Source: a bacterium
Lineage (GTDB): Bacteria > Desulfobacterota > Binatia > DP-6
Direction of reading: 5' to 3'
NCBI GenBank assembly: GCA_026129405.1
Contig: JAHCID010000008.1
Coordinates: forward strand, 62,001-126,000
DNA: 64,000 nt
The position numbers and the translations under genes were made by a program. The notes beneath the pieces were generated by a model. That model saw only the letters and a program-made list of their open reading frames with translations. It did no database searches and was not told the origin of the DNA. This document shows, piece by piece, positions 1,302-64,000 of the stretch (positions are counted from its first letter, which is position 1; every line of letters begins with the position of its first letter).

Positions 1302-2273
1302 TCAGTGCCGGACCGTCACCGTGACCCGGCTGTCCTGCTGCACGCAGGTCATGAACTCCTGCTTGCTGAGCGTCGGGTAGTAGAACGCGAACAGGTTGCA
1401 GTGCTCGTTGTCGTCGGTGAAGGGTCCGAAGGTGTAGTCGCGATCGGTGTCGTTCTCGTAGGTGCAGGTCCACTCGATGCCGGGGATCTGCGCCTGCTCG
1501 CCGGCGGCGAAGCGACGGAACGTCGGCTCGTCGTAGCCGTGATACTCGTAGAGGGGCGTGCCGGTCTTCTCGCCGTCCCACACGTGGGCGGTGAACTTCA
1601 CGCCGCGGAAGTGGTAGTGCCCGGTGAGCGCGAGCAGGTCGACCGGCCGATCGAAGACGCAGCGGGTGGTTGCGGTGGCGATCGAATGCGCGGGCACGAC
1701 CACGTCTTTGTCCTGCCCGAAGAGCGCGCCCGCGTACGACGTCACCTTGCGCTCCGGAATCGCGTAGAGGTTGTAGATCGCCCAGCCGTCCGCCGGCGTC
1801 GAGAGCGCGCCGTTGTCGACGAAGTGCGTCTGCGCCGCGAGCTGCTCGCGCGCGGTGAAATGGAAGGCGATGCCGTCGGGCAGCTTCCAGTTGAGCAGCA
1901 CGCTCTGGCTGCCGAGGATCAGCTGCCAGACGTCGAAGTCGAGCGCGAAGTTGCACGTCTCGTGGCCGTTCTCGATCGACAGCGTGCGGTCGTGGGGCCG
2001 ATAGAGGTGGATGTGGTGGCTGCCGCCGTTGACCTTGATCTTCACCTTGTTGACGGCGAGATCCTTCCTGCTCGGCAGCTTCATGTAGGTGCACTCGGTG
2101 ACCTCGGAGCCCTTCGGCACCTTGATCGGGCCGACCACGATCTGGGCCCCGCGGGCGGGCTTCGACATGCGGATCGGCGCCCGCTTCTTCGCCTTGGCGG
2201 CGGCATCGCCGGCCAGGGCGAGGACGAGCGACAGGGCGAGTGCGCAGGCGAAGACGCGGCGTGCTGCGGGCAT
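1302..2273 (-). CDS. Secreted copper type II monooxygenase-like protein (PHM/DBH fold) with His in place of the CuM methionine
   Basis: Exported protein of 323 aa; the signal peptide covers about residues 1-26. Its metal and disulfide pattern tracks rat peptidylglycine monooxygenase. His86/His87 and His150 match the CuH ligands (spacing 64 here, 65 in PHM). His219 and His221 match the CuM pair, and residue 291 sits exactly 72 after His219, as Met314 does after His242. Residue 291 is His, not Met. Cys270-Cys292 and Cys205-Cys310 fit two of the conserved disulfides. The family hydroxylates C-H bonds using O2 and ascorbate; whether this member does is unknown. I chose the ATG at 2273 because it gives a clean signal peptide; longer open frame upstream overlaps gloA and is not protein-like. 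Confidence 0.6.
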   Translation of the reverse strand: MPAARRVFACALALSLVLALAGDAAAKAKKRAPIRMSKPARGAQIVVGPIKVPKGSEVTECTYMKLPSRKDLAVNKVKIKVNGGSHHIHLYRPHDRTLSIENGHETCNFALDFDVWQLILGSQSVLLNWKLPDGIAFHFTAREQLAAQTHFVDNGALSTPADGWAIYNLYAIPERKVTSYAGALFGQDKDVVVPAHSIATATTRCVFDRPVDLLALTGHYHFRGVKFTAHVWDGEKTGTPLYEYHGYDEPTFRRFAAGEQAQIPGIEWTCTYENDTDRDYTFGPFTDDNEHCNLFAFYYPTLSKQEFMTCVQQDSRVTVTVRH

Positions 2274-62215: not shown

Positions 62216-64000
62216 TCACCCGGGCGCGGGCTCGCAGGTGAGGGTGATGGAATCCGCGTCGCTGACGGTCTTGCCGTTCGGCTGGAGGACGCTGCGCGCC
62301 TTCACCTTGGCGCGCAGGGTGGTGCGGCCGAAGGTGGCGCCGCGCGGCTTCAGCGCGACGCGCAGGAGCTGCGGCGTGGTGCAGCGCTCGGTGAGGACCG
62401 GCAGCGCGGCGAGCAGCTCGGTGCCGAGCTGGGGCGGCGACGCCGACAGCGTGGCGATGCCGCTCGCCGTGCAGGCGAGCCGGGAGTCGACGTTGTTGGC
62501 GCAGATCGAGGCGAGGAAGGTGCAGCCGCCGTCGACGGTGCCGTCGAGGTCGCAGGTGGGGTCGCCGTCGAAGCAGCGTACCTTGCGGTCCGGCGTGCCG
62601 CGGCGGTCGAGCGGCGGCGTCGGATAGATGAGCCACTCGATGAGGCAGTCGAGCGTGGCGCTGCCGCCGCCCGGGACGCAGGCGCCCGGCAGCGGGCCGC
62701 GGCACTGGCAGGCGTCGCCGATGCCGTCGGCGTCGGCGTCCGTCTGGGCGGGGTTCGGGATGCGCGGACAGTTGTCGCAGGCGTCGCCGCGCTTGTCGGC
62801 GTCGGCGTCGGCCTGGTCCGGGTCGCTGACGCCGGGGCAGACGTCGCAGGCGTCGCCGGCGCCGTCGAGATCGCCGTCGGCCTGATCCTGGTTCGTGACC
62901 GCGGGGCAGTTGTCGCAGGCGTCGCCGATGGTGTCGCCGTCGCTGTTGGTCTGGAGCGGGTTGGCGACGGCGGGGCAGTTGTCGCAGGCGTCGCCGCGGC
63001 CGTCCGAGTCGGCGTCGGTCTGGGTCGGGTTGGCGACGTTGATGCAGTTGTCGCAGACGTTGCCGCGGCCGTCGCCGTCGGAATCGAGCTGATCGGGGTT
63101 GGCGACGTCGACGCAGTTGTCGCAGGCGTTGCCGATCTCGTCGCCGTCGCTGTCGGCCTGGCTGGGGTTCACGACGGCGGGGCAGTTGTCGCAGACGTTG
63201 CCGATGCCGTCGCCGTCGGTGTCGGTCTGGGTGGGGTTCGCGATCGCCGGGCAGTTGTCGCAGAGGTTGCCGCGGCCGTCGCCGTCGGAATCGAGCTGGT
63301 CGGGGTTGGCGACGGCGGGGCAGTTGTCGCAGGCGTCGCCGCGGCCGTCGCCGTCGGAGTCGAGCTGGAGCGGGTCGGGGTTGGCGGGGCAGATGTCGCA
63401 GGCGTCGGCGATGCCGTCGCCGTCGGAATCGAGCTGGTCGGGGTTGGGGACGAACGGGCAGGAGTCGCAGGCGTCGCCGATGCCGTCGTCGTCGGTGTCG
63501 GCCTGGTCGGGGTTGGGGACGTTCGGGCAGTTGTCGCTGCCGGAGAGGGCCGAGGCGCGTGCGACCGAGCCGAAGACGAGGCGGGGCGTGCGCTTGACGC
63601 CGCAGTCGTTGCGGTAGCGGACGTCGAGGACGAGCTGGTCGCCGGCGGCGAGGACGCGGTCGGCGAGCGGGGCGTTCACCATGTAGGGGATGAGGAACGG
63701 GTTGGTGAGGCCGCCGGAGCCCTTCGGCGTGGTGGCGATGAAGCCGCTGCCGCTGCCGATCGGCGTGTCGACGCCGGACCGCCGGCGGTAGAGCTGCAGC
63801 TTCACCTGGAGGCACGCGCTCGGCGTGGCGAGGTTCGAGTAGGCGTAGATATTGCCCGTGCCGCCGCCGCGGTTCACCGTCTCCGGCGCGCCGATCGGCA
63901 CGCTGGCGAAGACGCCGTAGCTCAGCTCGACGCCGGGGAGCAGCTCGAGCTCGCGCTCCGTGTCGTTGCTCGCGGTCGGCGCGCTCAACGAGAGGACGCC
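62216..64000 (-). CDS. Secreted protein with twelve thrombospondin type 3 repeats (5' end beyond the window)
   Basis: The frame is open through base 64000, so the start and signal peptide lie outside the window. The visible N-terminal part (63535-64000) is a beta domain with [10 protein letters not shown] and [19 protein letters not shown]. Then come twelve 23-residue units of the type DNCP-x-VANPDQ-x-DSDGDGxGDAC, the Ca-binding thrombospondin type 3 repeat, where the Asp clusters bind Ca2+ and Cys pairs link units. A [15 protein letters not shown] module at 62501-62581, shared with the protein at 10681, and a beta-rich C-terminal domain follow. A surface or extracellular protein, probably a stiff Ca-dependent stalk. 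Confidence 0.8.
62708..63535 (-). repeat. Twelve tandem 69-bp units encoding the thrombospondin type 3 repeats
   Basis: Units keep exact 69-bp spacing through all twelve copies. The GATAACTGT-like codons are all GC-rich equivalents (GACAACTGC, GACGGCGAC), and neighbouring units are highly similar at DNA level. It is an in-frame coding repeat, not a CRISPR. Confidence 0.9.

Follow-up and report, generated by a model that had tools for sequence, protein, structure and literature searches.

Copper type II monooxygenases of the PHM/DBH family are known as enzymes whose catalytic copper, CuM, is held by two histidines and one methionine (His2Met), and the accessible structures and papers show either methionine or an engineered substitution at the third position. 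Why PHM and DBH should place a weak thioether ligand on an oxygen-activating copper is an old question, and it has so far been probed mainly by engineered substitutions that harm the enzyme. In tyramine beta-monooxygenase, variants of methionine-471, reportedly with histidine among them, are reported to be impaired for the most part. In PHM, the M314I substitution causes a conformational change and reduces stability (PMC6123673). A literature search covering mainly open-licence papers, and therefore weak as evidence, found no report of a natural histidine clade or of an M314H variant.

The gene, its predicted fold and its candidate copper ligands

The gene described here occupies positions 1302..2273 (stop codon included) on the minus strand of the window, the whole 64,000-nucleotide stretch of bacterial DNA that was analysed. 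It encodes a PHM/DBH-like copper protein of 323 amino acids, identified through PF03712 and through profile and structure matches, which is probably secreted: residues about 1-28 (2190..2273, minus strand) read as a hydrophobic, predicted N-terminal signal peptide region, and the AlphaFold model places a helix at residues 3-27. Flanking the gene on the same strand are ORFs that, named by sequence reading, are glyoxalase-like (2405-2800) and alpha/beta-hydrolase-like (145-1251). Elsewhere in the window, an ORF at 62216-63988 (minus strand) carries many tandem DxDGxGDxCDNCP repeats resembling thrombospondin type 3 calcium-binding repeats.

Membership of the PHM/DBH family, first proposed in the initial annotation, is backed by sequence, phylogeny and predicted fold. 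The window protein matches PF03712 with an E-value of 3.4e-7 and 30.3 bits against a cut-off of 23; the same Pfam search reported no match to the N-terminal model PF01082, an NCBIfam search returned nothing relevant, and phmmer with the single protein gave chance matches only in the PDB. Built from 22 bacterial homologues, a profile retrieves PHM from the PDB at 7.6e-19 and DBH at 2.8e-10. The structure prediction that the initial annotation had called for yielded an AlphaFold (AF2) model with a pLDDT of 89.5 and a pTM of 0.83, in which the two-domain beta-sandwich fold of PHM is present. PHM is the top PDB match of this model in Foldseek (E 1.9e-15), and in VIA-align it superposes with a Z of up to 23.5 over 272 residues (rmsd 3.2), followed by DBH (4zel) at Z 22.7, while the next unrelated fold, PNGase F, reaches a Z of only 8.8.

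The alignments recover all three histidines of the CuH site, namely His86-His87 (2013..2018, minus strand; PHM His107/His108) and His150 (1824..1826, minus strand; PHM His172), each of them an invariant candidate ligand aligned to PHM. Two candidate CuM ligands lie in His219-Tyr220-His221 (1611..1619, minus strand), both histidines being invariant and aligned to PHM His242/His244, and the third member of the canonical His, His, Met set is replaced by H291. C205-C310 and C270-C292 are candidate cysteine pairs. The numbering of these residues, and their PHM-like spacing as originally described, hold on translation. Given this clear homology to PHM and DBH, the histidine type is a variant of the superfamily and not a canonical PHM or DBH enzyme, and sequence and modelled structure together support placing the window protein in the copper type II (PHM/DBH) family with a Met-to-His replacement at CuM.

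The CuM methionine column

His291 is encoded by CAC at 1401..1403 (minus strand) and lies within DNEHCNLFAFYYP, which reads as E-H-C-NLFAF-YYP and so reproduces the E-x-C-(5 aa)-YYP context reported earlier. Its distance from His219 is 72 residues, as from 242 to 314 in PHM, and in the profile-to-PDB alignment the PHM block TSSDEMCNLYIMYY aligns on the E-x-C-x5-YY block, making column 291 the Met314 column. Spacing and profile alignment thus agree with the initial annotation, which had assigned this histidine to the Met314 position.

The family count of Met and His that had been suggested was obtained from 47 non-redundant homologous domains, all drawn from the same bacterial class as the window: column 291 holds Met in 27, His in 16, and Gln or Arg in the remaining 4. 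The other five ligands (H86, H87, H150, H219 and H221) are kept in 16/16 of the histidine proteins, and in the His-type alignment they are invariant together with C205, C270, C292 and C310, among members with as little as 36% identity to the window protein. When partial genes are counted, the EHC motif occurs in 19 distinct sequences, 18 with CAC and 1 with CAT, and reaching either codon from ATG takes more than one substitution. Since histidine is invariant in the clade and more than one substitution is required, His291 is not the product of chance or of sequencing error; that explanation was rejected, with His in 16/16 full-length proteins and in the 19 distinct sequences that include partial ones. 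Pseudogene drift was likewise rejected as its origin.

It could also be argued that the alignment itself is wrong, a different methionine serving as the CuM ligand of an ordinary family member, and Met308, which sits 17 residues past His291 and had been raised in the initial annotation, is the obvious candidate. We find this hardly credible: Met308 is Met in just 2/13 aligned members and mostly Thr or Ile in the orthologues, no conserved Met column was found in the 13-sequence alignment of the histidine clade, and the residues flanking column 291, E290 and C292, are invariant across His and Met types. Met308 was accordingly rejected as the CuM ligand.

Origin and distribution of the histidine clade

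In an unrooted maximum-likelihood tree, the 16 histidine proteins make up one side of a single branch (support 100/98), for which one change suffices. Methionine is taken as ancestral because PHM and DBH have it, as do most of the homologues in bacteria. Judged from these sequences, the Met-to-His replacement evidently arose once and is fixed throughout a bacterial clade. The loop ahead of the ligand, residues 283-290 (GPFTDDNE; 1404..1427, minus strand), is one residue longer than in most Met types: between FG and E, the alignment gives six residues in the histidine clade and five or fewer in the Met types. This longer loop is not confined to the histidine type, since two Gln-type sequences share it. 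Tyr220, between the two CuM histidines, is characteristic of the histidine clade and is also seen in one group of Met types.

Besides the window's own family, several further families of its class have genes of the histidine type. When about 380 other genomes sampled from the phylum were searched with a His-type profile, no such gene was found; the weak further matches fell in only two genomes, both of the same class, where the homologues are Met-type. Across 148 genomes of the phylum PF03712 recovers the window gene alone, because the model is weak for bacterial homologues. Genome contigs gave zero matches when searched with the single protein and ten loci when searched with the alignment, and a tblastn search of plasmids gave zero matches. 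Across the ten loci, no conserved gene neighbour was found that might hint at a substrate, a reductant or copper handling.

Paralogues, proposed function and known systems

The window's own genome (G000) encodes three Met-type paralogues, with EMC (G000:C2:829000-830133), DMC (G000:C8:53866-55050) and EMF (G000:C1:861607-862131 and downstream) at the CuM position, together with a copy in which most ligands are missing (L095 3022-4575 = G000:C4:147938-149023). In this last copy HH has become QH, H150 has become N, HYH has become NFH and Met has become Arg (ERC), and, judged by these residues, it is likely to be a pseudoenzyme in which normal copper binding would not be expected at either site. 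In the homologues with Gln or Arg at column 291, CuH is lost at least in part. Homologues with EQC at the CuM position and incomplete CuH ligands (L071, L015 and L031) form a group of their own.

Members in other families (L034, L036, L038, L045; L056; L072 3243-5072) carry an N-terminal domain with CX4CH and, later, Met-Pro; the window protein is without this domain. Some family members give Pfam matches to Planctomycete cytochrome C, all of them sub-threshold, and the N-terminal domain of a fused member was modelled as helical with low confidence. One may speculate that the CX4CH domain, if it is a haem or c-type cytochrome domain, could feed electrons to CuH and so replace ascorbate.

On balance, sequence and modelled fold incline us to place the window protein, which would be periplasmic or secreted, among the copper type II monooxygenases and to regard it as probably still a redox enzyme; its CuM would be all histidine (H219, H221 and H291), and its CuH is intact (H86, H87 and H150). 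Both sites would bind copper, electrons would enter at CuH, and CuM would use O2 or peroxide to act on some substrate that is not the C-terminal glycine of a peptide. The His3 site should prefer Cu(II) more than His2Met does, and for this reason both the potential of CuM and its oxygen reactivity should shift. That all six ligand residues are retained points to functional selection; the Gln/Arg homologues, by comparison, have lost CuH ligands as well.

The main rival, which we regard as rather unlikely, is that a former monooxygenase now binds, delivers or senses copper, its all-histidine CuM holding the metal without activating oxygen. If O2 chemistry had been given up, the catalytic copper would be expected to lose its thioether, and the family does lose function elsewhere, as in the QH, N, NFH, Arg paralogue of G000; yet a single site would suffice for such a role, both are kept in 16/16 sequences, and no copper-handling gene is conserved beside the gene. 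Of the two options left by the initial annotation, redesigned chemistry is favoured by the six conserved candidate ligands, the CuH triad included, and a non-oxygenase carrier is the less likely.

Three-histidine sites are not selective for copper, which leaves room for the second site to hold zinc, iron or manganese instead, as a hetero-metal or structural centre that prefers three histidines. This we consider improbable: the fold and the CuH site match those of copper enzymes, and a long list of other metals fails to replace copper in PHM, though the site there is His2Met (PMC6123673).

If the redox reading is taken further, the histidine proteins would form a natural clade of single origin comprising active monooxygenases whose oxygen activation takes place at a three-histidine CuM, the thioether, regarded as essential in PHM and DBH, having become dispensable once the surrounding loop was rebuilt; we advance this only tentatively. 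A natural clade with exactly the Met-to-His swap, and with every other ligand kept, offers ready-made test proteins, and the Met-type paralogues in the same genome offer the controls. It lets one ask whether methionine is needed for O2 chemistry or merely for its tuning.

Compared with rat PHM, to which it is about 17-20% identical, the window protein shares the fold, the His3 set of CuH, the HxH of CuM, the CuM-domain cysteines and the E-x-C-x5-YY block, and it retains PHM Asn316 as Asn293. It differs in having His291 for Met314, Phe295 for Tyr318 and, in the profile-to-PDB alignment, Thr217 for Arg240, the residue of PHM that contacts the peptide carboxylate; this last difference makes peptide amidation unlikely. 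With DBH and tyramine beta-monooxygenase it has in common the fold of the catalytic core and the ligand set, except for DBH Met487, which is replaced by His, and it is too short to contain their DOMON or dimerisation domain. The Met-type bacterial paralogues of the same class, 19-26% identical to the window protein, match it in their five histidines and E-x-C block; they often carry a CX4CH domain at the N-terminus, and they differ in having Met (EMC/DMC) at CuM and a loop that is usually one residue shorter.
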